Positions 9,845 through 33,723 of a DNA stretch of 56,562 nucleotides are shown here, piece after piece. The notes under the pieces are model-generated. The model had not been told where the DNA came from. It ran no database searches and was given only the letters and a program-made list of their open reading frames with translations. The stretch covers positions 1 to 56,562 of IMG/VR virus record IMGVR_UViG_3300028802_000016; one strand, given 5' to 3'. Numbering within the stretch: position 1 is the first letter of the stretch; each line of letters starts with the position of its first letter. Both the position numbers and the translations under genes were made by a program. This DNA comes from a virus.

Positions 9845-10582
9845 ATGACACGCCGCCCGAAGCGCCACGGAACCAGCAGCAACGACCACAGCCGTTCCCC
9901 CGAGGTACTGAACGCGCTGGAGCGCAAGAAGATCGAGCTTGACCCGCTGCTCGACGCCTGGGAGCAGCAGCCCAGCGAGACCCCCCGCGACTACGGCCTG
10001 TTCTGCATGTACCGAGACCACGGCAAGATCCGCACCATCGCGCAGATCGCCACCATGTCCCCGCTCACCTACGCGACCGTCGCCCGCATCGGCCGCATGA
10101 AGCGCTGGGTCGAACGTGCTGGCCTCTGGGACGCCGAGCAGGACCGCATCACCACCATTCGCCTCCAGGACGCCCGCGAGGACATGGCCCGCCGCCACGT
10201 CAAGGCCGCCGGGCTGCTGATGGACAAAGCCCTGGAGCGGCTGAAGTCGCTCAACCCGGACAAGATCAGCCCGCACGCCCTCATCCTCATGATCGACACC
10301 GCCGCGAGGATCGAACGCGCCGCGCTGGGCCTGGAGAAGGGCACCACCGCCCCGCAGACCTCCGTGACCGTCGCCGCCACCACGCAGACCGACGCCGCCG
10401 GGAAGCCGGAGATGCGCGTCGAGATCGGCGTGCAGCATGACAGGATCATGGCGTCTCTCGACCAGATGGTCTCCCGGATGAGCCCCGAGCAGTTGGCCGC
10501 CGGGTACGAGGAGCTGACCGCGAGCGCAGAGGAGGCGACTCGCGGGATTGACGCCGCCCTTCCTGCACCTCCTCCGCAGTGA
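9845..10582 (+). CDS. terS: Terminase small subunit
   Basis: The 245-residue protein matches actinophage small terminase subunits. A basic N-terminus is followed by a helix-turn-helix-like region around residues 50-90 (I-A-Q-I-A-T-M-S, then Y-A-T-V-A-R-I-G-R-M-K-R-W). A long helical oligomerisation segment and an acidic Ala/Glu-rich tail complete it. Small subunits recognise the packaging site and stimulate the large subunit. GTAGGAGGA lies just upstream of the ATG, and the end lies about 170 bases before terL. Confidence 0.75.
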   Translation: MTRRPKRHGTSSNDHSRSPEVLNALERKKIELDPLLDAWEQQPSETPRDYGLFCMYRDHGKIRTIAQIATMSPLTYATVARIGRMKRWVERAGLWDAEQDRITTIRLQDAREDMARRHVKAAGLLMDKALERLKSLNPDKISPHALILMIDTAARIERAALGLEKGTTAPQTSVTVAATTQTDAAGKPEMRVEIGVQHDRIMASLDQMVSRMSPEQLAAGYEELTASAEEATRGIDAALPAPPPQ

Positions 10583-10740
10583 AGGCGCTGGCGCGGCTGG
10601 GGGTCGCCCGCGTGCCGGGCGGCCGGGCGACCCCCGGTGACCGCATCCTTGCCATGATTGACTGGATGGCATTGTTCCTGCCGTCGGCTGTCCTCGTCGG
10701 CGAGATGATGCAGCCCGTTCTCGTCATCTCGATTGCGTAG
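10579..10740 (+). CDS. Possible 53-residue protein between terS and terL
   Basis: A GTG overlapping the terS stop opens a frame that ends just before terL. The C-terminal half is hydrophobic (M-A-L-F-L-P-S-A-V-L-V, then V-L-V-I-S-I-A), suggesting a small membrane protein. Codon use is less biased than in the flanking genes and no separate ribosome-binding site is seen, so this call is uncertain. Confidence 0.4.
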   Translation: MKALARLGVARVPGGRATPGDRILAMIDWMALFLPSAVLVGEMMQPVLVISIA

Positions 10741-10749
10741 TTTTCGATC

Positions 10750-12204
10750 ATGAGCCTGTCCGCCGCCCAGAAGCTGGCGCTGCTCCCGGCCAAGCTGCGC
10801 CGCGCCTGGCTGGCCGCCCAGAAGCGCGAGACCCTGGAGGAGATCCAGAAGGGCGCCTGGTGGTGGGTCGGCCGCCCCGAGCAGTTCAAGCCCCCCGGTG
10901 ACTGGCTTGTCTGGCTCATCCTGTCCGGCCGTGGCTGGGGCAAGACCCGCACCGGCGCCGAAGACCTCCTCGATCGCGTCTTCAAGCATCCCGTCGACAT
11001 GGTGGGCCAGCGCACCGAGTGGCTGGTCATCGCCGAGACCCTGAACGATTGCCGCACCGCCTGCATTGAGGGCAACAGCGGCATCCTCAGCGTGCTCAGC
11101 CGCATGGGCATGGAGAAGGCCAAGGACTTCCGCTACTGGAAGTCGCCCAAGCTGATGATCGAATTCTCCAGCGGGCAGGTCATCTATTTCGAAGGCGCCG
11201 ACAACGCCGACGTCGGCCGTGGCTACAACGCCGCCGGGCTCTGGGCCGACGAGCTGGCGAAGTGGCGCTACACCTGGAATGCCTGGTACGAGGGCATCCT
11301 CCCGTCGCTGCGCGCCCCGCTGATCGACGACCACCCCCGCGCCGTCATCACCACCACCCCGAAGCCGATCAAGCTGCTGATCGAGTGGAAGCACAAGACC
11401 GACGGCACGGTGGTCATCACCACCGGCTCGATCTTCGACAACATCGCCAACCTCTCCCGCCATGTGGTGGAAGAGCTGAAGAAGATCTACGAGGGCACCC
11501 GCGCCGGGTTGCAGGAGCTGTACGGCCACCTGATCGAGGAGGTCGAAGGCGCGCTGTGGCAGCGTCCCATGATCGAAAACAACCGCGTAAAGCCCGCTGA
11601 CCTGCCCGAACTGAAGATGACCGTCGTCTCCATGGACCCCGGCGCCACCGGCGCAGGCGACGAGACCGGGCTGGTGGCCTGCGGGCGCGGCTACAACGGC
11701 GATGACTACCTGCTGGCCGACTGGACGAAGAAGATCGTCGGGCACGCCGCCGCCCGGCGCGGCTGGGAGATGTTCATCCAGTACGACGCGACCTGGTTCA
11801 TCGTCGAGACGAACATGGGCAAGAAGTGGCTGATCCAGGTGGTGCAGGACGCGTACGCCGAGATGCAGAAGGAGCATGCGCCCGGCTGCGATGGCGAGGA
11901 CTGCGAAGGCTGCCTGCTCCCGCCCGGCCCGGCCCCGATCAAGGAGGTGACCTCCCTGGCCGGGAAGAAGCTGCGCGCCGAACCGGTCGCCTCCCGCTAC
12001 GAGCAGAACCGCTGGCATCACGCCGGTACGTTCATCGAGCTGGAGGACCAGCTCTGCACGTGGGTGCCCGAGGATGCGAAGAGCCCGGACCGGATCGACG
12101 CCCTCGTGCAGGCCGGTCTGTTCCTGATGGGCAAGGAGAACAAGCTGGTCCGCGTCGCCGCCCCCGCCGACATGCTGATGCCGGTCAGCTCTCCGTACGG
12201 GTAG
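10750..12204 (+). CDS. terL: Terminase large subunit
   Basis: The 484-residue protein carries the packaging ATPase Walker A motif L-S-G-R-G-W-G-K-T-R-T-G-A-E near residue 60. A Walker B-like segment follows (A-A-G-L-W-A-D-E-L-A-K-W, around residue 165). The C-terminal half holds the RNase H-like nuclease with V-S-M-D-P-G-A-T as its first acidic strand. It packages DNA into the prohead through the portal. The ATG at 10750 has no Shine-Dalgarno sequence; instead TTTTCGATC abuts it directly, the recurring motif in reverse orientation. A second copy (sense) lies inside at 11568-11580. Confidence 0.92.
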   Translation: MSLSAAQKLALLPAKLRRAWLAAQKRETLEEIQKGAWWWVGRPEQFKPPGDWLVWLILSGRGWGKTRTGAEDLLDRVFKHPVDMVGQRTEWLVIAETLNDCRTACIEGNSGILSVLSRMGMEKAKDFRYWKSPKLMIEFSSGQVIYFEGADNADVGRGYNAAGLWADELAKWRYTWNAWYEGILPSLRAPLIDDHPRAVITTTPKPIKLLIEWKHKTDGTVVITTGSIFDNIANLSRHVVEELKKIYEGTRAGLQELYGHLIEEVEGALWQRPMIENNRVKPADLPELKMTVVSMDPGATGAGDETGLVACGRGYNGDDYLLADWTKKIVGHAAARRGWEMFIQYDATWFIVETNMGKKWLIQVVQDAYAEMQKEHAPGCDGEDCEGCLLPPGPAPIKEVTSLAGKKLRAEPVASRYEQNRWHHAGTFIELEDQLCTWVPEDAKSPDRIDALVQAGLFLMGKENKLVRVAAPADMLMPVSSPYG

Positions 12205-12935: not shown

Positions 12936-13106
12936 ATGCGGCGGATAGCGGTCAGTGAACTGCACAAGGACTCCCAGGTGATTCTCAAGAGCGGCACCTA
13001 CACCGTGACCGCCGAGCCGATCAACACCGGCAACTCGTCCATCGTGAAGCTCGACGGCCTGGGTATCCGGGACTGGGCGAACGCCAAGACCGTTAAGGTC
13101 GCCTGA
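12936..13106 (+). CDS. Small protein, unknown
   Basis: The 56-residue protein starts M-R-R-I-A-V-S-E-L-H and is largely beta (V-I-L-K-S-G-T-Y-T-V-T-A). It ends in a short basic stretch. AGGAGGG lies eight bases upstream and a strong promoter precedes it, so it is well expressed. Length and fold resemble small SH3-like beta barrels, but no family is recognised. Its stop overlaps the next start. Confidence 0.65.
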   Translation: MRRIAVSELHKDSQVILKSGTYTVTAEPINTGNSSIVKLDGLGIRDWANAKTVKVA

Positions 13107-13465
13107 TGGACCCCGGAATCGCCGACGCCATCAACCGCCGCACAGCGCAGGCCGTCGCCGCCCGCATGGACGGCATCGACGTCGGCCTGGACATCCGCTT
13201 CCCCGAGGTCGGCAGCCCCTGGTACCACGGGAGTATGGCCGCCACGATCATGGGTGAGAACCCTGACGCGGGACCCCAGGATCTGCGCTGGCTCGTCAGC
13301 GCTCTCGGCCTCGCCACGTGGGGCACGGGTTTCGACGGCACCCCTGCCGACGCCGACTGGGACAACCTGTATTCCCACCTACGGGCCGAGGTTGTGGCCC
13401 GCAGGGATCGTGACCCGGAAATCCCCTGCGTTGCGGCGTCGACCGCTGTGGCGTCTGGTGTGTAG
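13106..13465 (+). CDS. Unknown protein, 119 residues
   Basis: The ATG overlaps the previous stop. The sequence has a helical N-terminus (D-P-G-I-A-D-A-I-N-R-R-T), a central D-I-R-F-P-E-V-G-S-P-W-Y-H-G-S-M, and a helical C-terminus. It is acidic overall. I recognise no motif. It is co-transcribed with the 56-residue gene from the promoter at 12873. Confidence 0.6.
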   Translation: MDPGIADAINRRTAQAVAARMDGIDVGLDIRFPEVGSPWYHGSMAATIMGENPDAGPQDLRWLVSALGLATWGTGFDGTPADADWDNLYSHLRAEVVARRDRDPEIPCVAASTAVASGV

Positions 13466-13479
13466 GGTCATGAGATACA

Positions 13480-13574
13480 GGAGGGGACCGGGGAAGGCCT
13501 TAGCCTCCTTGGTCTGTCAACCCGGACGGTTGCCCCCGCCGCCGTCCGGGAGGTGAGGCCACCCGGTCCCCTCC
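13480..13574 (+). ncRNA. Structured RNA element with a 13-bp closing stem
   Basis: A perfect 13-bp stem GGAGGGGACCGGG (13480-13492) with CCCGGTCCCCTCC (13562-13574) closes the element. Inside, CCCGGACGG (13521-13529) pairs with CCGTCCGGG (13542-13550), and GGCCT pairs with AGGCC, giving a multi-branch fold. It lies in a 143-base gap and is followed by the ribosome-binding site of the next gene. It could be a 5' leader regulator, a processed small RNA or a terminator-like barrier. No known class is recognised. Confidence 0.55.
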
Positions 13575-13608
13575 GCACCGCCCGACACACTCTCCGAGGA
13601 GAACCCCT

Positions 13609-13809
13609 GTGGACCTGACCCTGCACGTCGCGGACGAGAACGGCCTCATCAACCTGGGCGGCATCGTCCCGCCCGGCGCGCACTACACCGCCGCCCGCAA
13701 CGAGAACACCGGCGTCGTCCGCCTCGTCCCGGTGAAGGTCGCCACGACCGTCGTGCAGGCCCCCGACCCCGTCCAGGCGAACAGCCCGGACACGCAGCCC
13801 TGGGCCTGA
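13609..13809 (+). CDS. Small protein, possibly AbrB-like
   Basis: The 66-residue product starts at GTG with GAGGAGAA seven bases upstream. The first 45 residues read D-L-T-L-H-V-A-D-E-N-G-L-I-N-L, then G-A-H-Y-T-A-A-R, then V-V-R-L-V-P-V-K. This resembles the swapped-hairpin AbrB fold, used by small DNA-binding regulators, but the match is weak. A Pro-rich tail ends the protein. It directly follows the structured element at 13480-13574, so its expression may be controlled by that RNA. Confidence 0.55.
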   Translation: MDLTLHVADENGLINLGGIVPPGAHYTAARNENTGVVRLVPVKVATTVVQAPDPVQANSPDTQPWA

Positions 13810-14102
13810 CCCAAGACCCCCGCCCCGGACCGTCGTGTGGGCTGCAACCCCGTAGTGTCACCCGCCTTTGCAGAGGTGCGACCTGGGCGAGACTTCGGTC
13901 TCAGTAGCAGGAGGAGTGTCGAGCGGCCCGGGGCGGGCCAATACCAGCAAACGCCCGTGAGCTAGTTGTGCACGCCAGTCGTGGCGTTGACGGAGACAAA
14001 AACCGGGCAAGCAGGGAAGAGCCGGGACGACGGTAACGGTGACGACCTGATGCACGAAGCCTGGTGGTGGCTGCTGTAGGGCAGTAAGCGCCGTCAGGCC
14101 CT
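13810..14102 (+). other. ORF-free region before the tRNA cluster
   Basis: I see no gene. Small hairpins are present, including GAGAC-TTCG-GTCTC near 13893, GGCCCG-GGG-CGGGCC near 13935, and AACGCC paired with GGCGTT across about 27 bases. No tRNA T-arm signature is present. Large phage RNAs such as GOLLD and ROOL sit next to tRNA clusters in other genomes, so a non-coding RNA is possible, but nothing here identifies one. Confidence 0.35.
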
Positions 14103-14197
14103 GGGGAGATAGCTCAGCAGGCAGAGCGCACCTCGCTTAGAGGTCAGCCGGACTACCGAGCCGGTAAGAGGTCGCAGGTTCAAGTCCTGCTCTCCCC
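14103..14197 (+). tRNA. tRNA-like gene with an insertion in the anticodon arm
   Basis: The acceptor GGGGAGA pairs fully with TCTCCCC. The D-stem is GCTC/GAGC and the T-arm is GCAGG-TTCAAGT-CCTGC. The anticodon arm is oversized: 47 bases separate the D-stem and T-stem instead of about 23. A direct repeat AGAGGTC (14139-14145, 14167-14173) spaced by 28 bases brackets the extra sequence, which contains CCGG-ACTACCGAG-CCGG. If the first part is the real arm, the anticodon could be CTT, but base 33 would not be T. I cannot assign an amino acid. No CCA is encoded. Confidence 0.6.
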
Positions 14198-14209
14198 TCG
14201 AAACCGCAA

Positions 14210-14287
14210 GGGCTTGAAAGCTGAGAAGGTCGGCGATCAGCACCGGGTTTATGCCGGAGGTTCGCGGGTTCGAATCCCGTCAAGTCC
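14210..14287 (+). tRNA. tRNA, anticodon uncertain (TTA in a 7-base loop)
   Basis: The acceptor GGGCTTG pairs with CAAGTCC (one G-T). The D-stem GCTGA/TCAGC has a 12-base loop, and the T-arm is GCGGG-TTCGAAT-CCCGT. The anticodon stem is CCGG/CCGG with loop GTTTATG. The central triplet is TTA, which would read UAA stop codons. Positions 32 and 37 have bases that are unusual there, so this reading needs caution. The discriminator is A; no CCA is encoded. Confidence 0.62.
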
Positions 14288-14383
14288 ACGCGAAGGAACG
14301 CCAGGTGTCGTCCCGCCCCTCTGGGGGCTCGGTCGGCTGCTCAGCCTGGAGTCAACCGACGCCGCCGGAACGAGCACCCGGCG

Positions 14384-14453
14384 GGCCCTGTAGCTCAGCG
14401 GATAGAGCACCCGCCCCTGGCGGGAGGTCGGCGGTTCGAACCCGTCCAGGACC
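14384..14453 (+). tRNA. tRNA with a shortened anticodon loop, possibly CCT
   Basis: The acceptor GGCCCTG pairs with CAGGACC except one C-A mismatch. The D-arm is GCTC/GAGC with an eight-base loop. The T-arm is GGCGG-TTCGAAC-CCGTC and the variable loop is AGGTC. The anticodon stem CCCGC/GCGGG encloses only five bases, CCCTG, two short of normal and without T33. The central triplet CCT would be Arg. Outside the anticodon loop it is a typical class I tRNA of 70 bases. Confidence 0.65.
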
Positions 14454-14463
14454 ACGTAAGCAA

Positions 14464-14665
14464 GGCGACGTAGCTCAGACAGGACAGAGCACCCTCGGTC
14501 GAAGAATGCCGTGCGCACGGCACGACGCGACCCCCGGCCGGTACAGCCGGTGCTCAGAGGGAGGAGTGGCCCGAAGGATCACCCAGGTCCGCGCCCGGCA
14601 GGATCAGCCGGGAGTCGGATGGGACCGAGCCAGAGGACCCCGGAGGTTCAAATCCTCCCGTCGCC
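14464..14665 (+). tRNA. tRNA-like gene carrying a large insertion
   Basis: The acceptor GGCGACG pairs fully with CGTCGCC, the D-stem is GCTC/GAGC, and the T-arm is GGAGG-TTCAAAT-CCTCC. Between D-stem and T-stem lie 151 bases (14491-14641). They begin CCTCGGTC and end GACCGAGCCAGAGG, so CTCGGTC pairs with GACCGAG and CCTC can pair with GAGG. Inside are a 16-base palindrome centred on GTGCGCAC and the hairpin CCCGGC-AGGATCA-GCCGGG. The insert is smaller than the group I introns I know of and I see no group I core. The secreted inhibitor gene starts 33 bases downstream and is probably co-transcribed. Confidence 0.55.
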
Positions 14666-14697
14666 ACGCAGCATTCGCCCACCAACCAGGAGGTCCC

Positions 14698-15096
14698 GTG
14701 CGCACCAAGCTCAAGGCCGCACTGCTCACCCTCGCCGCCTCGGTGAGTCTGCTCAGCGTCGCCGCCCCCGCCCAGGCCGCCCTCACCGATTGCCCCCTCG
14801 GCAGCTTCTGCCTCTGGACCGCAACCAACTACAGCGGCTCCCGCTTCCAGTACTCCAAGGCCACCTTCGACGCCCACTACCGCCACGGCATCGAGTTCGG
14901 CTCCGGCGTCTCCAACCGGGGCTACTCGTTCTACAACCACACCACCGTCGCCATCAACATCTACGACTCCGGCGACTGCTCCTACAGTCCCTGGACGCGG
15001 ACCATGGCCAGCGGCCAGTACGCGACCGCTCAGGGTTCCGACTGGGGCGGCCGGGTGTCCTCCGCGCAGATCAAGGCATACGCTCCTGCCTGCTGA
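14698..15096 (+). CDS. Secreted peptidase inhibitor, family I36 type
   Basis: The 132-residue protein starts at GTG with AGGAGG four bases upstream. It has a Sec signal peptide (K-L-K-A-A-L-L-T-L-A-A-S-V, cleaved after A-P-A-Q-A). The mature part has D-C-P-L-G-S-F-C-L-W, then G-S-R-F-Q-Y-S, then S-N-R-G-Y-S-F-Y-N and W-G-G-R-V-S-S. These match I36 inhibitors such as the Streptomyces metalloproteinase inhibitor SMPI, a beta/gamma-crystallin fold. Four cysteines can form two disulfides. It would be exported by the infected host. A paralogue lies at 32250-32666 on the other strand. Confidence 0.8.
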   Translation: MRTKLKAALLTLAASVSLLSVAAPAQAALTDCPLGSFCLWTATNYSGSRFQYSKATFDAHYRHGIEFGSGVSNRGYSFYNHTTVAINIYDSGDCSYSPWTRTMASGQYATAQGSDWGGRVSSAQIKAYAPAC

Positions 15097-15202
15097 AGAC
15101 ACCCCCACAAGGGGAAACGGCGCACACGCTGCGCCTGGTAACAGGAACCGGTAATCAGCCGCAAAGGGGACGCGTACCCGATCGGTGAAGAACCGTAGTA
15201 CC

Positions 15203-15271
15203 GCCGTGAGGCTGGAAGGCAACAGCGCCGGGCGAGAGCGCGGAGGCCGGGGTTCAAGTCCCCGCACGGCA
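15203..15271 (+). tRNA. tRNA-like gene, anticodon not assignable
   Basis: GCCGTG pairs with CACGGC to form the acceptor stem. The D-arm is GCTG/CAGC with an eight-base loop. The T-arm is CGGGG-TTCAAGT-CCCCG. Between D-stem and T-stem the sequence can form CCG/CGG or GCGC/GCGC stems but no standard seven-base anticodon loop with T33. The discriminator A followed by CG matches four neighbouring tRNA genes. The sequence from 15097 to 15202 holds no gene that I can see. Confidence 0.5.
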
Positions 15272-15335
15272 CGCAGGGATGCACACGTGGAAGCGGAAGG
15301 CGACGGCCCTACCTACGGCCTGCGTGTGCTGTCAC

Positions 15336-15438
15336 CCTCCCCGGTGTCTACCAGACGTGGACTGGGGAGGAGGCGGGTCGTCAGTAGGCATCTGGAGCTG
15401 TCCCCGTGGCCACGGCGCGGCAGCGTCTACTGACGACC
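15336..15438 (+). ncRNA. Two strong hairpins upstream of a small gene
   Basis: CCTCCCC (15336-15342) pairs with GGGGAGG (15364-15370). A second stem of 12 perfect pairs, GGTCGTCAGTAG (15376-15387) with CTACTGACGACC (15427-15438), encloses an inner CCGTGGCCACGG palindrome. The element ends 28 bases before the ATG at 15467. It may be a leader regulator or a processed RNA. No U-run marks it as a terminator. Confidence 0.5.
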
Positions 15439-15466
15439 TACCCTAGAAACCCTGGAGGAGGGCACT

Positions 15467-15661
15467 ATGGGCACCAAAAAGCCCGCAAAAAACGTCAAGA
15501 ATCTGATAGCGGCGGCGGAGGCGAACAAGGCCGTCAAGGCTGCCGCGCCGCGCCGCGCCGCGAAGGAGATGCGCCTGCGGGGGAAGAAGCACAAGACCGC
15601 GCCGACGCACGTGCTGACCCTCATCGCGAAGGCCGTGAACCGGCAGAAGGGAAAGTCGTGA
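15467..15661 (+). CDS. Small, very basic protein
   Basis: The 64-residue protein is Lys/Arg/Ala-rich throughout (M-G-T-K-K-P-A-K-N-V-K-N, later A-P-R-R-A-A-K-E-M-R-L). GGAGGAGGG lies six bases upstream. The composition resembles small histone-like or ribosomal-type proteins, suggesting nucleic acid binding. No family is recognised. It follows the hairpin pair at 15336-15438 and overlaps the next start. Confidence 0.6.
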   Translation: MGTKKPAKNVKNLIAAAEANKAVKAAAPRRAAKEMRLRGKKHKTAPTHVLTLIAKAVNRQKGKS

Positions 15662-15873
15662 CCGTCACCGCTGAAGCGCCCGCCCGGTACGTGAAGCTGG
15701 CCCCGAAGAACATCGTCAAGGTCGGTGCGCTCGCGGGCACCGACACCCCTCACAAGCACGCCGGTGACGCCTGGACCGGGTCGTCGTGCATGGCCTGCTT
15801 CGGCTGGAGCGACGACCCCCGGCATCTGGCCCGCGTCCCGCGTGCCCGGCGCGCCAGGGTGGTGGCGGCATGA
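15658..15873 (+). CDS. Small Cys/His-containing protein
   Basis: The 71-residue protein starts at a GTG overlapping the preceding stop. A beta-like N-terminus (R-Y-V-K-L-A-P-K-N-I-V-K-V) is followed by H-K-H-A-G-D-A-W-T, then C-M-A-C-F-G-W-S-D-D-P-R-H. The C-x-x-C and His residues suggest one zinc. An Arg-rich tail ends it. Unknown function. Confidence 0.55.
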   Translation: MTVTAEAPARYVKLAPKNIVKVGALAGTDTPHKHAGDAWTGSSCMACFGWSDDPRHLARVPRARRARVVAA

Positions 15874-16292
15874 TCCGGGTGCCGGACCCGGGGAAGATCG
15901 GGCAGGCGCTCGGCGAGGTCCGCAGGATGCTCGCGATTCCCCGGCGGCAGGCGGCCCGGCAGATCGCCGAGGCGGTCGGCCGGTCGGAGACCAGCGTCAA
16001 CTCGCAGCTGTGGGGCTGGGAGAACGGGCAGCACCAGCCGGACCTGGGATCGATCGTGCCTGTCCTCGATGTCCTCGAATATGATCTTGCCCTGGTGGAG
16101 CGGCCCGATGGCCCCCGCTCGTGGCCTCGTCTCGAAGACCCGCCCGCCGATGTGCTGAAGGTGCGCGGCGCCGACGGCACCCTCTGGGTCAGGATGGAAG
16201 CGGAAGGCCGCTACTGGTCCGCCAGGGGCTGGGAGGATGGCGTGAGCTGGTCTCAGGTCCTGTACTGGGGCCCCGTCACGGAGGTGCGGTAG
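15870..16292 (+). CDS. XRE-type helix-turn-helix protein
   Basis: The 140-residue protein has an N-terminal Cro/C1-type HTH (residues about 8-65): I-G-Q-A-L-G-E-V-R-R-M-L, then Q-A-A-R-Q-I-A-E-A-V, then S-V-N-S-Q-L-W-G-W-E-N-G-Q. The last segment is the typical recognition helix plus W-E-N-G. The C-terminal half has repeated Trp residues and a small beta domain. It is the best candidate for a transcriptional regulator in this genome. Dyad operators at 17225 and 18091 lie 0.9-1.8 kb downstream, but no direct link is shown. Confidence 0.75.
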   Translation: MIRVPDPGKIGQALGEVRRMLAIPRRQAARQIAEAVGRSETSVNSQLWGWENGQHQPDLGSIVPVLDVLEYDLALVERPDGPRSWPRLEDPPADVLKVRGADGTLWVRMEAEGRYWSARGWEDGVSWSQVLYWGPVTEVR

Positions 16293-16294
16293 AG

Positions 16295-16558
16295 ATGCCC
16301 GACAACGCGTATGACCCGCCCAGGTGGGAGCCCGACGACCGTGGCCCTCTGGCCCTTGCCGAGGCTGTCGGTCAGTCCCTCGGGGCGGCGAGCATGTGCT
16401 GGGTCGGCGGGACCGGCCAGCTCGAATTCGACAGCGTCCGCTGTGTCGAGATCAACGACTGGCTGATGGCGTACCTCGCCGACTGGGGCGACAAGATCCG
16501 CCGGGAGGCGAACGAGGCCACCAGCGCCAAGCTCGTCGCGAAGGAACGCTGGCAGTGA
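16295..16558 (+). CDS. Unknown protein, 87 residues
   Basis: GGAGG lies ten bases before the ATG. The protein is acidic and helical (L-A-L-A-E-A-V-G-Q-S-L, then I-N-D-W-L-M-A-Y-L-A-D-W). It resembles small actinobacterial accessory proteins without a named domain. Its stop overlaps the GTG of the next gene. Confidence 0.6.
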   Translation: MPDNAYDPPRWEPDDRGPLALAEAVGQSLGAASMCWVGGTGQLEFDSVRCVEINDWLMAYLADWGDKIRREANEATSAKLVAKERWQ

Positions 16559-16845
16559 GCGGCATCTTCAAGGAAAGCCCCTGGCAGAACATTCCGCTGT
16601 ACGAGCCCGTTGCCGTGCAGGCGGGCAAGCACTATGAGGTGGGTATCGACACGGAGACGGGAAAGCCGTATGTGCGGGAGGCGGCGCAGGGTCTCGTGTT
16701 TCCGAGCAACGGCACGATCCATGGGCTGCTGATGATGGAGCCGCCTGCTGGCGCGGCGGCCGTCTATCACGCCTCCCGAAAGGTTACTGACCAGTACGAG
16801 TGCCAGGATTCCCGGGAAAACACCCCCGAGAATCCGGCAAACTAG
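16555..16845 (+). CDS. Unknown protein, 96 residues
   Basis: The GTG start overlaps the previous stop. The protein begins V-S-G-I-F-K-E-S-P-W-Q-N-I and contains H-Y-E-V-G-I-D-T-E-T-G-K-P, a beta-rich pattern, then M-M-E-P-P-A-G-A-A-A. No family is recognised. It ends eight bases before the next tRNA-like gene. Confidence 0.55.
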   Translation: MSGIFKESPWQNIPLYEPVAVQAGKHYEVGIDTETGKPYVREAAQGLVFPSNGTIHGLLMMEPPAGAAAVYHASRKVTDQYECQDSRENTPENPAN

Positions 16846-16852
16846 CACCAAA

Positions 16853-16953
16853 GGCCCGACGGCAAGTGGATCGAGCGCGTCGCCCCGCGCACCGTCGCCA
16901 GGCAAAGCGGCCCCGCCGAGGGGACGCGAGGGGGTCCGAATCCCCCGAGGGCC
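16853..16953 (+). tRNA. tRNA-like gene, possibly with a long variable arm
   Basis: GGCCC pairs with GGGCC at the ends; the next two pairs are G-A and A-G mismatches. The T-arm is GGGGG-TCCGAAT-CCCCC, with C in place of the usual second T in the loop. The D-region A-A-G-T-G-G-A-T-C-G-A-G-C resembles normal D-loops. GCGCG-TCGCCC-CGCGC may be the anticodon arm, with a six-base loop. About 40 further bases could form a class II variable arm. Amino acid not assignable. Confidence 0.4.
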
Positions 16954-16956
16954 ACG

Positions 16957-17085
16957 ATCCCGAGCGCCCTGGGACTACGCGCCCCTCGGGATGTGTCACC
17001 CCCTGCCGATTCGGCCGCAGAGCGCGGCCCGCCGAGGCTCACGGGCGCCGGAGCGACGTCGAATGCGGAACGTCTACGGCAGGGG
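16957..17085 (+). ncRNA. Structured sequence between two tRNA-like genes
   Basis: ATCCCGAG (16957-16964) pairs with CTCGGGAT (16985-16992). CCCCTGCCG (17000-17008) pairs with CGGCAGGGG (17077-17085), enclosing GGCCGC/GCGGCC and GACGT/ACGTC hairpins. Precursor processing sites or an independent small RNA are both possible. No gene is seen here. Confidence 0.45.
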
Positions 17086-17090
17086 CTCAA

Positions 17091-17163
17091 GGCGGGGTGG
17101 CGCGCACCAGGCGAGCGCGGCCCACAGAAGGGTGACGAGGCAGGTTCGAGTCCTGCCCCCGCC
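17091..17163 (+). tRNA. tRNA-like gene, anticodon not assignable
   Basis: The acceptor GGCGGGG pairs fully with CCCCGCC. The D-stem is GCGC/GCGC with an 11-base loop, and the T-arm is GCAGG-TTCGAGT-CCTGC. The anticodon stem GCCC/GGGT encloses ACAGAA, six bases, again lacking a standard loop with T33. The total length of 73 bases is normal. The discriminator is A and no CCA is encoded. Confidence 0.58.
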
Positions 17164-17224
17164 ACAAGTTACCGGCCAGTACGGACGCGAAGAGTTTGCA
17201 GCTCAATACCGGATACAGACCAGA

Positions 17225-17268
17225 ACCGTCCATCCCTGATGGACGGTAAACGGCCCGTCATGTACGCT
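17225..17268 (+). promoter_or_regulatory. Promoter with a dyad over the -35 box
   Basis: TGGACG (17240-17245) and TACGCT (17263-17268) are separated by 17 bases. The -35 lies in the right arm of a 9-bp inverted repeat, ACCGTCCAT and ATGGACGGT, with a five-base spacer. The leader GACCGACAGACACC and AGGAGGAG follow. The dyad is a good candidate operator. Confidence 0.6.
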
Positions 17269-17302
17269 GAGGACCGACAGACACCGCCAGGAGGAGACCT
17301 TC

Positions 17303-18034
17303 ATGCAGTACGCAGACCCGTCCGTCGACTGGACCGAATGGTTCCAGGACAACATCGACCGGGACGACGCCGCCAAGCTGGCCGCGCTTCGCGAGTACAT
17401 CTTCGAAGCCGCCGGGCACTGGGTCAGCAACGGGGAAATCACCCACACCTGGGCCGACAAGAAGCTGGCCAAGCTCGGCATCACCACGAGGATCGAGAAG
17501 GAGCAGGTCTACGACCTTGCCGCCCCCATCGCCGCCCAGATGGAACTGCGTGTCTACGCCCGCAACCGGGTCGAGGCCCTGGAGAAGGCCAAGGAGCGGC
17601 TGAACGGCATGGGCGCCGGAATGGCCGCCAAGGTCACCATGGCCGGGGACGTTGCATTCACCAGCGGCCCCGAGGACCACGACCCGAACGTCGTCGACCC
17701 GGACGCCCCGCAGACCGTGTTCGCCACCCTGGCGATGTTCCGCGAGATCGTCATGCTCGGCCACATCGCCGGGCCGAAGTTCTGCTCGGTCGGCGCCAAC
17801 CGGGTTCTCGCCCAGTTCGGTCTCGCGCCGATCCCGGAGGCCAAGGAGTTCGTCGTCACCCGCCCGGTGGTCGCCACGGCCCGCACTGTCGTGTCGGCGT
17901 ACGACGAGGCCAGCGCCGAGCGGGTCGCCGACTGGCGCTGGGACGACGGGCAGACCGGCTACGAGATCTACGACACCGTGTCGTCCGGCGATGCGGTTGT
18001 CGAGCCGCACCGCTTCCAGCCCCCCGCCGTCTGA
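17303..18034 (+). CDS. Unknown protein, 243 residues
   Basis: The protein begins M-Q-Y-A-D-P-S-V-D-W-T-E-W-F. It has a helical first half (residues about 20-115, with A-K-L-A-A-L-R-E-Y-I-F-E-A-A and L-E-K-A-K-E-R-L-N-G-M). The second half contains P-K-F-C-S-V-G-A-N-R and A-R-T-V-V-S-A-Y-D-E. AGGAGGAG lies six bases upstream. It has its own regulated promoter. No catalytic motif is recognised. Confidence 0.65.
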   Translation: MQYADPSVDWTEWFQDNIDRDDAAKLAALREYIFEAAGHWVSNGEITHTWADKKLAKLGITTRIEKEQVYDLAAPIAAQMELRVYARNRVEALEKAKERLNGMGAGMAAKVTMAGDVAFTSGPEDHDPNVVDPDAPQTVFATLAMFREIVMLGHIAGPKFCSVGANRVLAQFGLAPIPEAKEFVVTRPVVATARTVVSAYDEASAERVADWRWDDGQTGYEIYDTVSSGDAVVEPHRFQPPAV

Positions 18035-18158: not shown

Positions 18159-18719
18159 GTGAACACCGTCATCCACAACCTGATCCTCCGGCTCACCCGC
18201 CGCGCCCGCCTCGTCATCTACCCCGGCGACATCACCACCATCAACGCCGACGCCATCGTGAACGCCGCCAAGCCGTCCCTCATGGGCGGCGGCGGAGTTG
18301 ACGGGGCGATCCACCGCGCGGGCGGCCCCGACATCCTGGCCGAATGCCGCGCCTTGCGTATCGCCTACCCGGACGGCCTGCCTGTCGGCCGCGCTGTCCG
18401 CACCACCGCCGGGCGGCTGCTGGCGGACCACGTGATCCACACCGTCGGCCCGGACCGGCGCATCGGCCAGACCGACCCGGCCCTGCTCGCCGACTGCTAC
18501 CGGAACAGCCTCAAGGTCGCCGACAAGCTGAAGGCCCGGACCGTCGCCTTCCCGCTGATCTCCTCCGGCGTGTACGGCTGGGACACCGACGACGCCCTGC
18601 GGATCGCCATCGCCGCGATCACCGACGCCCGCACCCGCGTGAGGACCGTCGGGCTGGTCCTGTTCGACGACGCCACCATGCGCGCCGCGAAGACGATCGT
18701 GACCGAGGCCGGACGATGA
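18159..18719 (+). CDS. Macrodomain protein (ADP-ribose binding/hydrolysis)
   Basis: The 186-residue protein starts at GTG with GGGAGGG five bases upstream. From residue 15 it is a MacroD-type macrodomain: V-I-Y-P-G-D-I-T-T-I, then D-A-I-V-N-A-A, then G-G-G-G-V-D-G-A-I-H-R-A-G-G, and later P-L-I-S-S-G-V-Y-G-W. These are the ADP-ribose-binding loops, including the Asn and the Gly-rich loop followed by Asp of active hydrolases. The family removes ADP-ribose from proteins or nucleic acids, or deacetylates O-acetyl-ADP-ribose. Another gene in this genome encodes a probable ADP-ribosyltransferase plus Nudix box, so a counteracting or anti-host-defence role is plausible. Confidence 0.88.
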   Translation: MNTVIHNLILRLTRRARLVIYPGDITTINADAIVNAAKPSLMGGGGVDGAIHRAGGPDILAECRALRIAYPDGLPVGRAVRTTAGRLLADHVIHTVGPDRRIGQTDPALLADCYRNSLKVADKLKARTVAFPLISSGVYGWDTDDALRIAIAAITDARTRVRTVGLVLFDDATMRAAKTIVTEAGR

Positions 18720-23711: not shown

Positions 23712-23740
23712 GCTTCATGATCAAAAATAATCGCTATGAT
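23712..23740 (+). promoter_or_regulatory. Probable promoter for the giant gene
   Basis: TATGAT (23735-23740) lies seven bases before the ATG at 23748, so the transcript would be leaderless. A weak -35 (about 23712-23717) lies 17 bases upstream, and the GATCAAAAAT copy of the recurring motif occupies the spacer. The string CGCTATGATC recurs upstream of the capsid gene at 36363. Confidence 0.5.
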
Positions 23741-23747
23741 CCCTGGC

Positions 23748-26700
23748 ATGACGACGACGCTCGGGAGCCTGTTCAAGGGCGGCGGGGTCTATGTCGCCCC
23801 CGTCGCCCCCGTCGACCCCGCCACGTACGCCATCGTCACCGGCCAGCCCGCCCCCGACCTGGCCGACGCAATCGCCACGGTCGCCCTGCTGGCCAGCGCT
23901 CACGCCCCCAGCCTCGGCTCCCTGTCGCACATCGTCGCGAGCGTCCAGGGATGGGCCAACCAGGATGATGACGCCCACGACACCTGCGACTGGGATTCCC
24001 TGGTCGCCTGCCGTAACCCGCTGCACCCGGGCCCCTGCAAAGGCTGGAAAGGCACCCTCCACTCCGTCGCCCCCGGCACCTACTACCAGGTAGAAGCCGC
24101 CCGCGTCGCGAAGGCCAACACCCGGCGCGTCCAGAAGATCGCCGACCTCAAGGCGCAGGGCAAGCCGATCCCCCGCCGCCTGCTGGACGAGATCAAGCCG
24201 AAGGCCGCCCCGGGCCACCCGGCCCACGGCGCGCAGCCCGTCCCCCTCGGTCAGGTCAACCAGAAGGCCGACCTTGCAGGCGGTCAGGCCCACGCCGCCG
24301 GTCAGGCCGTGTCCAAGGCCGCTGGTGTCCAGGTCAACACGCCCGGCCCGCTGCCGCTCGGCCCGAAGGGCAAGAAGCCCACCATCGCCGGTCGCGGCCC
24401 CGCGTTCGTCATTACCCAGCCCAAGGTCACCGACACCTACAAGCTGGGCAAGGCCGACAAGCTCACCCCGCAGGAGTGGAACGACCTCTCCGACGCCGAC
24501 AAGAAGACCATCCGCGACGAGCTGGAGGCCATCAAGCAGCGCGGCTTCGGCCCGCAGCAGAAGAAGGCCGACGAGCTGCTGGCCCGCCTCCCCGAGAAGG
24601 GCCTGGCGCCGGGCACCCCGAACACGGTCACCACCCCCAAGGGCAACGTCCACCAGGCCATCAATCCGGCCCCCGGGAAGGTCAGCCTGGGCACCGCAAC
24701 CAAGACGGCAGGAACGGCCCCCAGCGCCCCCAGGGCGGCCCCCAGCGCCCCCGCCGCGCCCAGCGCACCCAAGCCCACCGCCACGGCCCCCACGCCCGGC
24801 ACAGCGGTCACCACGATGACGCCCGTCGGCGTCGCCGGGAAGATCCGCAAGGACGGCCACGCCGACATCATCCTGGGCGGCAAGAAGGTCCGGACCGGTT
24901 TCGCCAGCAGCAGCCACCCGGGCAAGCTGACCATGGCCCCCGGCGGCCACTACGTCGTCACCGAGGCCGACGGCACCAAGCACACCCTCGCCAAGGGCCA
25001 GCACGTCCAGGTGGCCACCGACAGCGGCGCCCCCGCGACGCCGCAGGTGGCCCCGGCCCCGACGCCCGCCACCCCCAGGGCGCTGTCCCCCGACGCCCAG
25101 AACGCCCGCGCTGTCGCCGGTCGCGGCCTCGGCCGTCCCACCTCCAAGGCGCACCTCGACGCCTACGGCAAGCTGTCCAAGGCCGACTTCGACTCCCTCG
25201 ACGCCACCACGCAGAAGACGATCCGCGACGACCTGGCCAACGCGAAGGCGAAGTTCCTCGACCCGGCGAAGAAGCAGGCCGCGCAGGATGTCCTCGACCG
25301 CCTCGGCGCCAAGCACCCCGCGACCGCCCCGACGCACCCGTCCGGCGCGAAGGGCTACAGCGACCCGCAGAACGAGGCCGTCAAGGCGACCAGCTCCGGT
25401 CTCATCTCCACCGACGACGTACTGAAGACCGTCGGCCGCCTCTCCCCCAACGCCGTCAAGGGCCTCTCCGACGACGACCGCAAGCGCCTCCTCGGCCGCC
25501 TTGCATTCGTCGCCACCCACCCGAAGGCCACCCCCGACCAGAAGGCGAAGGCCGCCGCGTACGGGCGAATCATCAACAGCGGCAGCCCCGACGCGAAGAC
25601 CCTCACCCTCGACCACGAGCCGTCACTGGGGGAGCTGCACGCCCACGAGGAGAAGGCCGCCGCCGTCAAGGGTCAGGCCAGCGCCGCGAAGGTGACGACC
25701 GCCCTGGACGCCGCCGACGCGAAGATCCCGGGCGCCGGACCCGGCGCCCGGATCAAGGCGCTCAACGGCCTCGACAAGGCGCAGTTCGACAGCCTCAAGC
25801 CCGACCAGCAGCGGAAGATCACCGATGCGCTCCAGGAGCTGCATCACGCGAACGCGGGATACGGCAAGACCCGCACCGACGACGACCAGGTCGCCGAGGA
25901 CGCCCTGGCGCGGTACACCGGCCAGCACCCGGCCGTGCACCGCGCCGTTCAGGCCGAAGCCGACTTCCGGGCGGGCCGGATCACCCCCGACGAGCTGCAC
26001 AGCGAGATCCTGCACGCCCGCGTCCAGCTCCCCGTCGGCCAGAGCGCCGCCCGCGCCAAGCTCCAGCAGGAAGAGCAGCGGATCGCCGAGGACAACGCGA
26101 CCCTGCCGACCTGGCTGCGCGCCTCCTTGATCGAAAACAAGTACTCCAGTGTGCGTGGCAATCCGTACGACGTGATCGCCCAGCTCTCCATGAAGCACAT
26201 GTGGGGGCCCGCCCCCCGGATGAGTTCGGGGGACTTCCGGTTCATCTTCAACTCCGCCGACGCGAACCTGGCGAACACCCACCCCATCCACGTCGAAGCG
26301 ATCAAGGATTTCCGCGAGAACATCGTCAGCACGGGCCTCGACTCCGCCAGCCCCTGGTCCACCGCGACCAAGGGCCAGCTCGTCGACTCCCTGCTGAGCA
26401 GCGGCTACGCCCCCAGCCCGGTCGTCACCGACGACCGGATGAAGATGTTCCACGACCTCACCCCGGCCACCCAGATGAAGGTCCGCACCGCCCTGGCCGA
26501 CCGGATCCTGGCCCAGACGCACCCGCGCGCGAAGGCCGCCACCGACATCACCCTGCGGCAGTTGCAGGGCCACCCGTACCAGGGCCATCAGCTCGACGCT
26601 GCCCTGGCCGCTGCCGACGCGTCCCTGCGGAGCACCAACTACGACACCTACCGCAAGCTGGCGCCGTCGGAATACCAGGGCCTCTCCCCGATCATTCAGG

Positions 26701-28997
26701 GGGCCATCGATGACCAGCTCGACCACTACCAGCGCCGGGCCGAGGGCCACGGCCAGGTCGTCAACTTCGGTCTCCAGAGCAACGCGCTGAAGGAGTTCCC
26801 CGCCGCCCTCAAGGCGCAGCTCAACGGGACCCGCGAGCAGCACCTCGGACGCGCCGAGCGCAACGCCTCCGACGTGGCGAACTACGGCACGAAGATCGTG
26901 CTGCCCGAGTACCGCGTGGACGTCTACAGCGGCCTGTCCATCGCCGCCTTCCGGAAGATGTCGACGCACACCCAGGACAAGGTCCACGCCGACCTCGACA
27001 CGATCGGAAACGACAGCGGGAACCCGCTTGGCCTGCGATACCGCGCGCTGCGCGCCAAGGACATCGACCTGGGCGACGCCCCCGGGCTCAACGCCAACCA
27101 GATCGCCGCCATCGCCAGCGTCAACCCGACCAACCCCACCAGCGACAGCAACGCCCACGCCGCCCTCGCCCTCCTCGACAAGGCCGACTACGACAAGCTG
27201 AACACGACCTACCGTGAGGCCGTCGACCAGCGGGTCCAGGGCCTGTCCGACCCGATGCAGCAGCAAGCGCTGACGGTCAAGTTCCACCCCAACACCCCGG
27301 CCGCGTCCACCCCCGCCGGGATCAACCCGACCAAGCCCGCGACCGTGCAACCGCACGTGCAGGACGCCCTGGACACCATCTACGGCGTCCACCCGAAGTC
27401 GCACACCATGGCGCACCAGCTCAAGACGTACGGCTCGCTGCGCGGCTCCGACTTCGGCCAGCTCAACCCGCAGGAACAGTCGCACCTGCTGTCCGACCTG
27501 TCGTTCATCGAGACCACCGCGAAGGGCCCGTCGGCCGCCAAGGCGAAGCTGCTCATCGACCGGTTCACCCCGGCCGGTACCCCGCCCGGCCAGATCCCGC
27601 CGCAGCCGATCATCCCCCCGGCCAACGCCATCCCCGGCCAGGTCCGCTACGCCACCCCGCTCAAGGGGCTGGAGATGTCGAAGAACCCCGGCGTCTCCGG
27701 CGACCAGTGGATCACCACCTCGTCCGGCCGCCGCGTCTGGGGCAAGTACGGCGCGTCCGGCATGCTGATCAGGCACGTCGACCCGAACACCGGCGAAGAG
27801 CGCTACCTGATGGTGCAGCGCGGTCCCGCCATCTCCGACCCCGGCATGTGGACGTTCCCCGGCGGCGCCAGCGAGTCGAAGGAGACCCCGCACGAAGGCG
27901 CCACCCGCGAGACGATCGAGGAGCTGGGCCTCAAGGACGACCAGTTCAAGGACGCCCAGGTCCACGGCGACTTCACCTACTCGATCCCGAACAGCACGTG
28001 GAAGTACACGTCGGTTGCCGTCCAGGTGCCCAGCCAGTTCCAGCCGAACCTGTCGACCGCCCACGCCCGCGCCGAGACGTCCGACGCGAAGTGGATGACG
28101 ATCGACGAGATCCGCGCGCTCGACCGGTCCGGCAAGCTGCACGGCCCGATCGCCAACGGCCTGCTGGAGAAGAACGTCATCAGCCTGTACCCGGCCGCCG
28201 GGGCACCGGCCGGTACGACCCTGGGCCAGGCTGTCCGGCCCGGCCCGGTCACTAAGCGGCAGGGCCGCCTCGGCTTGCCGCACGGTGGCCGTCAGGCGCC
28301 CGCCTCGTTCAACGCCTGGCCGCACGCGCACAAGCCGTCCACGGGCAAGAACCTCGTCGGCGACATGGCGTCCATCAACAAGCTGCGGCAGGACGTCAAG
28401 CAGGCCCGCACCGCCTACGACGGCAAGACCGGCGACGGCCGCCTGGCCGCCATCGGTGCGATGCAGGGCTACGACGACACCCCGACGGTCGCCAGCCGCG
28501 CCGAGGTCGACCGGCTCCTGGCGACCGGCGACTACATCGAGGCGTGGCGCGGCGTCAACCGGGGCAGCGGCAAGAGCGCGGCCCAGATCAACGAGGACTT
28601 CCGCTCGGGCCCGGCCTGGTACGGGCGGGGGATCTTCGGCAACGGCTACTACCTGGCCACCCAGAAGACCGTCGCCCAGAAGTACTCGGACCACTCGAAG
28701 AACAGCCTCGTCCGGATCTTGATCCCGAAGAGTGCCGTGACCGAGCACTACAGGAAGGTCCAGGGGGAGGCCCGCGCCAACTCGTCCAGCCAGTCGAAGG
28801 CGAAGGGCAAGTACGAGGACGGCACGTTGTACGACGCTGGCCGTTGGGCTGCCGCGAAGGGTGTCGACGGCATCCAGATCAACCACGACACCACGAACGA
28901 CCGGGGCGGCTGGGCGCGGCACGTCGCGGCGCCCGGGAAGCCCGCCTTCAATTGGCTCAACCGCTCCGTGCTGATCGTCCAGGAGGCCGACAAGTGA
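23748..28997 (+). CDS. Giant head-associated protein with Nudix box and probable ADP-ribosyltransferase domain
   Basis: The protein has about 1749 residues. Near residues 86-98 it has an LHPGPCKGWKG element like that of the MuF protein. Residues about 230-1260 hold some nine copies of a helical module with the pattern Y/L-x-x-L-x-x-x-x-F/W-x-x-L, e.g. L-S-K-A-D-F-D-S-L-D. A Nudix box follows around residue 1370: G, then E, then RETIEELGL, matching GX5EX7REUXEEXGU. The last ~160 residues have A-W-R-G-V-N near 1597, Y-G-R-G-I-F-G-N-G-Y-Y-L-A-T near 1625, and D-G-I-Q-I-N-H. This resembles an ADP-ribosyltransferase fold with its conserved Arg. The start has no ribosome-binding site. Co-injection with DNA is inferred from its position beside MuF. 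Confidence 0.7.
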   Translation: MTTTLGSLFKGGGVYVAPVAPVDPATYAIVTGQPAPDLADAIATVALLASAHAPSLGSLSHIVASVQGWANQDDDAHDTCDWDSLVACRNPLHPGPCKGWKGTLHSVAPGTYYQVEAARVAKANTRRVQKIADLKAQGKPIPRRLLDEIKPKAAPGHPAHGAQPVPLGQVNQKADLAGGQAHAAGQAVSKAAGVQVNTPGPLPLGPKGKKPTIAGRGPAFVITQPKVTDTYKLGKADKLTPQEWNDLSDADKKTIRDELEAIKQRGFGPQQKKADELLARLPEKGLAPGTPNTVTTPKGNVHQAINPAPGKVSLGTATKTAGTAPSAPRAAPSAPAAPSAPKPTATAPTPGTAVTTMTPVGVAGKIRKDGHADIILGGKKVRTGFASSSHPGKLTMAPGGHYVVTEADGTKHTLAKGQHVQVATDSGAPATPQVAPAPTPATPRALSPDAQNARAVAGRGLGRPTSKAHLDAYGKLSKADFDSLDATTQKTIRDDLANAKAKFLDPAKKQAAQDVLDRLGAKHPATAPTHPSGAKGYSDPQNEAVKATSSGLISTDDVLKTVGRLSPNAVKGLSDDDRKRLLGRLAFVATHPKATPDQKAKAAAYGRIINSGSPDAKTLTLDHEPSLGELHAHEEKAAAVKGQASAAKVTTALDAADAKIPGAGPGARIKALNGLDKAQFDSLKPDQQRKITDALQELHHANAGYGKTRTDDDQVAEDALARYTGQHPAVHRAVQAEADFRAGRITPDELHSEILHARVQLPVGQSAARAKLQQEEQRIAEDNATLPTWLRASLIENKYSSVRGNPYDVIAQLSMKHMWGPAPRMSSGDFRFIFNSADANLANTHPIHVEAIKDFRENIVSTGLDSASPWSTATKGQLVDSLLSSGYAPSPVVTDDRMKMFHDLTPATQMKVRTALADRILAQTHPRAKAATDITLRQLQGHPYQGHQLDAALAAADASLRSTNYDTYRKLAPSEYQGLSPIIQGAIDDQLDHYQRRAEGHGQVVNFGLQSNALKEFPAALKAQLNGTREQHLGRAERNASDVANYGTKIVLPEYRVDVYSGLSIAAFRKMSTHTQDKVHADLDTIGNDSGNPLGLRYRALRAKDIDLGDAPGLNANQIAAIASVNPTNPTSDSNAHAALALLDKADYDKLNTTYREAVDQRVQGLSDPMQQQALTVKFHPNTPAASTPAGINPTKPATVQPHVQDALDTIYGVHPKSHTMAHQLKTYGSLRGSDFGQLNPQEQSHLLSDLSFIETTAKGPSAAKAKLLIDRFTPAGTPPGQIPPQPIIPPANAIPGQVRYATPLKGLEMSKNPGVSGDQWITTSSGRRVWGKYGASGMLIRHVDPNTGEERYLMVQRGPAISDPGMWTFPGGASESKETPHEGATRETIEELGLKDDQFKDAQVHGDFTYSIPNSTWKYTSVAVQVPSQFQPNLSTAHARAETSDAKWMTIDEIRALDRSGKLHGPIANGLLEKNVISLYPAAGAPAGTTLGQAVRPGPVTKRQGRLGLPHGGRQAPASFNAWPHAHKPSTGKNLVGDMASINKLRQDVKQARTAYDGKTGDGRLAAIGAMQGYDDTPTVASRAEVDRLLATGDYIEAWRGVNRGSGKSAAQINEDFRSGPAWYGRGIFGNGYYLATQKTVAQKYSDHSKNSLVRILIPKSAVTEHYRKVQGEARANSSSQSKAKGKYEDGTLYDAGRWAAAKGVDGIQINHDTTNDRGGWARHVAAPGKPAFNWLNRSVLIVQEADK

Positions 28998-32249: not shown

Positions 32250-32666
32250 TCAGCAGGGGTTGTCCGTGCTGACCGGGATGGCGTTGCCGAGCTGGATGGA
32301 GGACACCCGGCCGCCCCAGTCGGAACCCTGAGCGGTCGCGTACTGGTTGTTGTCCATGCCCCTCCACCAGGGGCTCTTGCGGCAGTTGTTGGAGTCGAAG
32401 ATCCCGATCCAGACGTGCGAGCGGTTGTAGAACGAGTAGCCCCGGTTGGAGATCCCCGAGCCCAGCCGCAGGCCGTTGTTCGTGCCGTCCTGGATCGTGT
32501 CCCGGTGGTACTGGTACCGGCCGCCGGTGGCGTTGACGTTGGTCCAGATGCAGAAGTAGTTGTCCGGGCAGTCCGCCCAGGCGGCCTGGGCCGGGCTGGC
32601 GACGCCGACACCGAGGCCGACGGCCACGGCGAGCGCCATCAGCGCGGTCATGATCTTGCTACGCAT
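32250..32666 (-). CDS. Secreted peptidase inhibitor, family I36 type (paralogue)
   Basis: The 138-residue protein starts M-R-S-K-I-M-T-A-L-M-A-L-A-V-A-V with GGAGG six bases upstream. The signal peptide ends at S-P-A-Q-A. The mature part has D-C-P-D-N-Y-F-C-I-W, then S-N-R-G-Y-S-F-Y-N and W-G-G-R-V-S-S. Compared with the copy at 14698-15096, the cores align and these motifs are shared, but loops and signal peptides differ. Four cysteines are conserved. Both copies may protect virions or the cell from host extracellular proteases. Confidence 0.8.
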   Translation of the reverse strand: MRSKIMTALMALAVAVGLGVGVASPAQAAWADCPDNYFCIWTNVNATGGRYQYHRDTIQDGTNNGLRLGSGISNRGYSFYNRSHVWIGIFDSNNCRKSPWWRGMDNNQYATAQGSDWGGRVSSIQLGNAIPVSTDNPC

Positions 32667-32713
32667 GTTGATCCTCCGATCGGCGGGGCAGGTCCCCGCG
32701 CACCTGATCGCAC

Positions 32714-33695: not shown

Positions 33696-33723
33696 GGTGT
33701 CCTCCTCGTGTCTGTCGGCCCTA

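Follow-up and report, generated by a model that had tools for sequence, protein, structure and literature searches.

Arrays of phage tRNA-like genes that keep the tRNA body and lack a canonical anticodon arm

Phage transfer RNA (tRNA) genes are usually regarded as codon suppliers or as substitutes for cleaved tRNAs. YrlA and other bacterial Y RNAs, some of which are phage-encoded, are non-decoding RNAs that have tRNA-like D, T and acceptor elements and no usable anticodon arm (PMC8394870; the YrlA features used here are those given in reviews and in PMC7790460). Murine gammaherpesvirus 68 (MHV68) carries a viral array of tRNA-like genes, the vtRNA/TMER genes, and only 3 of its 8 vtRNAs have a 7-nucleotide (nt) anticodon loop (PMC4810235). 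The phage tRNA arrays of T5 and mycobacteriophage C1 are tied to defence evasion, in transfer-messenger RNA (tmRNA) tRNA-like ends flank a long insert, and archaeal-type and group I introns place surplus sequence in the anticodon region of tRNAs. Here we describe at least six tRNA-like genes of a phage record from IMG/VR (IMGVR_UViG_3300028802_000016, positions 1 to 56,562; this whole 56.6-kb stretch, with 68% GC, is called the window), which lie on the plus strand between the terminase and portal genes and are named by their start positions: 14103, 14210, 14384, 14464, 15202 and 17091. The genes of this array are very probably non-decoding tRNA mimics, an assignment that is structurally well supported by sequence comparison.

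Relatives of the phage, which belongs to a group of soil phages, were collected by a search with the portal protein, which gave 48 loci, many of them with 10 kb of upstream sequence; nearly all of their portals are 74-84% identical at the protein level and one is distant (32%). In 33 loci, some of which are near-identical to one another, a search by structure turned up 104 tRNA-like genes, and 72 dinucleotide-shuffled versions of the regions had no comparable tRNA-like structure. In order to avoid circularity, acceptor stems were examined at sites picked solely by the motif TAGCYCA and the T-arm, and the acceptor was inspected afterwards. Among 93 such sites, which have 34 distinct 5' strands, 67 pair at 7 of 7 positions and 18 at 6 of 7, with a mean of 6.51, while permuting the partners among the sites gives a mean of 4.23 of 7 and a highest value of 4.54 in 200 permutations, so compensating changes have kept the acceptor stems paired. 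The elbow nucleotides R15 (63 of 66) and A21 (65 of 66), which are outside the search pattern, are also kept; U8, A14, T54, C56 and A58 belonged to that pattern and are given no evidential weight.

The 7-base-pair (bp) acceptor stem, the D-arm and the T-arm with its conserved nucleotides are present as in decoding tRNAs, and it is the anticodon arm that differs. A lenient test for a canonical arm (a 7-nt loop with U33 on a 5-bp stem in which 4 or more pairs form), applied to genes of normal length with tRNAs of other phages and bacteria as controls, is passed by 5 of 34 family genes versus 31 of 36 controls, and a strict one by 3 of 34 versus 27 of 36. Genes 14103, 14384 and 14464 all lack the canonical combination of 5-bp stem, 7-nt loop and U33. 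In place of the arm the family genes have one hairpin (loop of 3-8 nt, occasionally 10), two to four hairpins or an armless stretch of 9-10 nt, and some have an insert in the D-loop instead. A few are near-canonical tRNA-Cys(GCA) genes, so the phages may keep one real tRNA too. All the tRNA-like genes of the window array are abnormal, as are most in the relatives, and the phenomenon is thus larger than the two genes, 14103 and 14464, to which an earlier note on this DNA had drawn attention. Judged from the sequence, codon reading is impossible without an anticodon arm.

For both of these genes the earlier note had described perfect seven-base acceptor stems, D-stems and T-arms with about 24 and 130 surplus bases, respectively, and the counts agree. 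In 14103 the acceptor GGGGAGA/TCTCCCC pairs 7/7, the D-arm is GCTC..GAGC and the T-arm is GCAGG TTCAAGT CCTGC; 46 nt separate the D-stem from the T-stem, versus the usual ~22, a surplus of 24, and the gene scores 46.7 bits (E 7e-7) against the Rfam tRNA model. It was aligned with its orthologues L008:5314, L010:3978, L021:4953, L031:2433, L062:626 and L142, seven sequences in all. The first hairpin of its replacement module is 100% paired in the seven, with U-A, C-G and A-U alternating at one position, while the pairing of the 5' strand of this hairpin with the distal AGAGGTC repeat is 71% and shows zero compensatory change, which argues for two successive hairpins and not for an insert that interrupts an anticodon stem. 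The AGAGGTC direct repeat itself is present as reported, at 14139-14145 and 14167-14173, but its proposed bracketing role falls, since the orthologues do not conserve the repeat and there is no covariation between its distal copy and the 5' strand. The two-hairpin module is also found on other acceptor stems, in L062 and L142.

In 14464 the acceptor GGCGACG/CGTCGCC pairs 7/7, the D- and T-arms are perfect, and the 151 nt between D-stem and T-stem, versus ~22, leave a surplus of ~129. The alignment consists of five sequences, including the orthologues L002:6475, L008:6349, L010:4508 and L024:830. A conserved stem, CCCYC/GRGGG (14492-14496/14557-14561), stands at the position of the anticodon stem and is 100% paired, with one compensatory position. 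The RNAalifold consensus fold has compensatory changes in ten pairs, the T-stem and internal hairpins among them, and the variable region of ~80 nt is less conserved than the domain that the stem encloses (domain 1). Of the pairing arms and hairpins attributed to this insert, the arms CTCGGTC/GACCGAG are only 71% paired in the orthologues, and CCCYC/GRGGG encloses further hairpins. The absence of a group I core was also rightly noted, and no group I family matches up to E 5.

Gene 14384 scores 52.5 bits against the Rfam tRNA model, and its orthologous group, recognised by a GGCGG T-stem, has 21 genes with 9 types of acceptor stem. The scaffold of 15202 recurs in L013, L015, L021, L031, L041 and others; its C1.A72 mismatch is a feature of bacterial initiator tRNAs. 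CCA is not encoded, and TCG or ACG follows the genes instead. Two pairs of genes are in tandem with a spacing of 9-11 nt (14198/14210 and 14454/14464), and the array genes are situated between co-directional protein genes. The features of the window are listed in Table 1.

Table 1. Positions of the tRNA-like genes, their parts and other features of the window
Feature	Position	Strand	Remarks
tRNA-like gene 1	14103..14198	+	96 nt; acceptor, D- and T-arms intact; two hairpins in place of anticodon arm
Gene 1, hairpin 1	14130..14144	+	ACCTC-GCTTA-GAGGT; 5 bp and 5-nt loop
Gene 1, hairpin 2	14147..14165	+	GCCGG-ACTACCGAG-CCGGT; 2 of 7 aligned rows shifted by 1 nt in this region
tRNA-like gene 2	14210..14290	+	acceptor GGGCTTG/CAAGTCC; unusual D-arm; hairpin ACCGG-GTTTATG-CCGGA at anticodon position; weak match to tRNA/tmRNA covariance models
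tRNA-like gene 3	14384..14454	+	anticodon arm CCCGCC-CCT-GGCGGG, 6 bp and triloop, without anticodon
tRNA-like gene 4	14464..14666	+	203 nt; stem at anticodon position closes a multi-hairpin domain; variable region enlarged to ~80 nt
Gene 4, domain 1	14492..14561	+	stem CCCTC/GAGGG around hairpins GGTCG..CGACC, GCCGTGCGCACGGC and CCGGCCGGTACAGCCGG; compensatory changes in RNAalifold; 5 of 5 pairs kept
Gene 4, expanded variable region	14562..14641	+	contains hairpin CCCGGC-AGGATCA-GCCGGG; conserved in part only
tRNA-like gene 5	15202..15272	+	acceptor CGCCGTG/CACGGCA with C1.A72; GAGA-tetraloop hairpin at anticodon position
tRNA-like gene 6	17091..17164	+	acceptor GGCGGGG/CCCCGCC; non-canonical arm, GGCCCACAGAAGGGTGACGAG
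Terminase genes	9845-12204		
Conserved flanking open reading frame	13106..13465	+	119 amino acids, unknown product; upstream border of array region; in 24 of 25 relatives
Peptidase inhibitor I36 domain gene	14698..15096	+	accessory, within array; Pfam E 4.5e-12; in 4 of 25 relatives only
Macro domain	18159-18719		
Portal gene	19383		
NUDIX domain	23736-28997		in a 1753-amino-acid protein of the structural region
Second I36 protein	32250-32819		
DUF1810	33015-33785		
Glycosyltransferase-like gene	34675-36558	-	627 amino acids; amid head genes
Head gene	36431		
Tape-measure gene	45534		

The window genes differ from each of the described systems. Compared with YrlA and the Y RNAs, the window phages carry several divergent genes each, and many genes of this type are without a long stem for partner binding: the long Ro60-binding end stem is missing, the ends pairing as the 7-bp acceptor only, and the middles go down to 9-10 nt. 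TROVE (Ro60) is found in 0 of 19 and DUF2828 in 0 of 18 records of the phage group of the window. Membership of the Y RNAs is rejected on the absence of these two families and on middles that are often too small, and as far as sequence comparison goes the window genes are an orphan variant of tRNA mimics, whose partner genes (Ro60, DUF2828, RtcB) are absent. The vtRNA/TMER genes belong to a eukaryotic virus, depend on RNA polymerase III and have downstream microRNA hairpins, whereas the window genes are altered inside the tRNA body. The tRNAs of T5 and mycobacteriophage C1 keep decoding anticodons (PMC10264068, PMC11555353), and the window genes do not. Unlike tmRNA, they keep a full D-arm, form arrays and show no tag reading frame; the sole tmRNA match in the array is 14210, at 24.8 bits and below the gathering score of 47, and ARAGORN reports no tmRNA in the window, so a tmRNA identity was rejected. 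In contrast to tRNAs with archaeal-type or group I introns, their splice pairing is not conserved, they share no anticodon and they do not match an intron core.

Rfam in permissive mode gives essentially tRNA-type matches only over the arrays, and positions 13400-17300 have zero matches to named phages in DNA similarity. The nearest named phage by portal protein is Actinoplanes phage phiAsp2 (37% amino acid identity), and such tRNA-like genes are absent from the two stretches of phiAsp2 that were searched. A search of the open-access papers in PubMed Central gave no description of phage genes of this kind. Two further types of RNA were seen among the relatives. L035 and L008 have, ~4 kb upstream of the portal, possible acceptor/T-arm minihelices without D- or anticodon arm (CCGCTGTATGG..TTCGAGT..CCAGCGG), and L009, L011, L033, L034 and L044 have another tRNA-like family, whose T-arm is GGTGGTTCGAGTCCACC and whose D-region is replaced (GG-TTAT-GAAGGC).

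When IMG/VR and GTDB genomes were scanned by pattern for tRNA bodies of excess size, other groups were matched as well. Many of the bacterial matches adjoin genes which, from their sequences, we take to be Ro60 (Brasilonema, with homologues in Herpetosiphon), RtcB (Chryseobacterium) and a vWA protein resembling DUF2828 (Clostridia). The GTDB loci L148, L164, L180, L169, L190 and similar ones carry bacterial tRNA-like genes with inserts of 40-50 nt whose type is lineage-specific (Chryseobacterium, Herpetosiphon, Brasilonema, Clostridia), and their neighbours presumably encode Ro60, RtcB or DUF2828-like vWA proteins, as recognised by sequence. DUF2828 is encoded by 7 of 11 other phages tested. 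The matches beside Ro60, DUF2828 and RtcB fit YrlA-type tRNA-mimic RNAs (PMC8394870, PMC7790460). In the AT-rich phages L056, L063, L069, L083, L100, L108 and L109, tRNA bodies of Lys/Asn type have an insert of ~40-45 nt which, by eye, lies between tRNA positions 28 and 29 and consists of a hairpin followed by ACAGCAA. DUF2828 is present in 6 of these 7 records (the exception is L056) and in L067, and these RNAs and DUF2828 are probably phage Y-RNA-like partners. Ruminococcus loci L178, L179, L183, L197 and L205 have tRNA bodies with a similar insert, and the gene adjoining them reads as what we assume to be alanyl-tRNA synthetase (alaS).

The most likely mechanism for the array genes, which we propose tentatively, is that they act as decoys for, or titrate, factors with affinity for the tRNA body. 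The conserved body (7-bp acceptor; D-arm with A14, R15, GG and A21; T-arm TTCRA) would fold into the half of a tRNA that consists of acceptor and elbow, and the mimics would be handled like tRNAs by RNase P, 3' processing, CCA addition and T-loop modification. With small stable hairpins, folded modules or no arm at all where the anticodon arm should be, they cannot decode, and may capture factors that recognise the tRNA body, titrating or blocking them outside translation. Prime targets would be host defence or toxin proteins that attack tRNAs; a tRNA that lacks the anticodon loop would be a decoy that they can bind but not cleave, and the large covarying modules may supply extra contacts. An anticodon nuclease leaves the tRNA-like domain of YrlA intact, and this domain has been proposed to be a competitive inhibitor of that nuclease (PMC7790460); tRNase evasion has been proposed for phage tRNAs with altered anticodon loops (PMC10264068). 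A decoy or titration role is favoured because what the genes have in common is removal of the anticodon, all else being free to vary, and the compensatory changes within the replacement modules of 14103 and 14464 are in its favour. Some points weigh against it. Conserved 100-nt modules are unnecessary for a pure decoy, some orthologues disrupt several of the internal pairs of 14464, and the module alignments are shallow (5-7 sequences), which makes the internal folds provisional. Evasion of retron-Eco7 is lost when the anticodon of the phage tRNA is changed (PMC11555353), so protection in that case needs the anticodon and works by replacement and not by a decoy.

Covariation of the large modules makes a tRNA-scaffolded regulatory RNA the closest rival. 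In such an RNA the body would ensure processing and confer stability, and the working cargo (antisense, protein-binding or a tether) would be the replaced arm, as in Y RNAs or the tRNA-like RNAs of gammaherpesviruses. It is doubtful as a general explanation: the modules are conserved within groups, one of them is shared by different acceptor stems (L062, L142), inserts occur in the D-loop too, and loci of Ro60, DUF2828 and RtcB elsewhere have tRNA-like RNAs with an insert at the same place, but many members are too small to carry cargo, with no more than a tri- or tetraloop hairpin or 9-10 nt, and TROVE, DUF2828 and RtcB partners are absent in the 18-19 records of the phage group. Decay of former translation tRNAs, with arms lost through insertion and deletion and no function left, would account for the very large variety in length, for the few near-canonical tRNA-Cys genes and for members that resemble deletion derivatives, such as L007, whose 10-nt middle is like a remnant of the L015 module. 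Decay should degrade all arms and not one, the new modules have compensatory changes as well, and acceptor pairing is kept over 34 different sequences, which makes gene decay unlikely.

RNase P requires the acceptor and T-arm half of a tRNA, which these genes have, and they sit between co-directional genes, so tRNA-like folds might be RNA punctuation, cut by RNase P or RNase Z to separate late mRNAs. This is quite improbable given the tandem clustering, with copies 9-11 nt apart and not one per gap, and the conservation of D-arm and elbow exceeds the minimum for RNase P. Least probable by far are introns or other removable inserts that would leave decoding tRNAs. Although the inserts sit in the anticodon region and the intron mode of ARAGORN is able to draw tRNAs, that mode gives the 14464 orthologues Pro, Leu, Pro and, with other boundaries, Met, and across orthologues the anticodons differ or are missing. 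Several relatives have middles of 9 and 10 nt, too short for splicing, and with nothing to splice introns are unable to explain the family. The bracketing pairings of 14103 and 14464 are both unconserved, covariation favours independent hairpins over an anticodon stem that brackets an insert, positions 13400-17400 have no intron-family match in Rfam up to E 5, and the RtcB ligase is found in 0 of 18 phage records. Three candidates of this kind were rejected: a group I intron (Rfam match and core absent in that interval), an intron-bearing tRNA (removal of the insert yields no single anticodon arm common to the orthologues) and RtcB-based RNA repair or splicing (RtcB missing). Introns, decoys or tRNA-like regulators had been offered as explanations in the earlier note; the introns are disfavoured by the short relatives, the lack of a common anticodon and the independent hairpins, while decoys and regulators remain, with strong comparative support for a non-decoding mimic.

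Comparison of 25 relatives shows no conserved protein partner beside the array apart from general syntenic open reading frames. The I36 gene, a basic open reading frame at 15467 and the remaining small ones are accessory and not conserved partners, and promoter and terminator scans gave no signal exceeding chance. The same phage encodes a second I36 protein, and the GC content and the I36 genes suggest an actinomycete host. Macro, NUDIX and DUF1810 domains are possibly several ADP-ribose/NAD-related enzymes in one phage, and a glycosyltransferase-like gene lies on the minus strand amid the head genes.

It is possible, and held here more tentatively than the decoy role itself, that these genes form an undescribed class of hypervariable anticodon-less mimics arranged in arrays and independent of Ro60, whose body would compete for host tRNA-binding proteins, notably tRNA-cleaving defences, and whose exchanged arm would be an evolvable specificity module. 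Caution is needed in genome annotation, where tRNA finders mistake genes of this kind for ordinary tRNAs whose anticodons are odd. The arrays make the decoy idea directly testable, and they would provide a counterpart in nature of the tRNA scaffolds built by engineering. Arrays that keep the tRNA body without decoding, in many related phages, indicate that the shape of a tRNA is separable from its function in translation.
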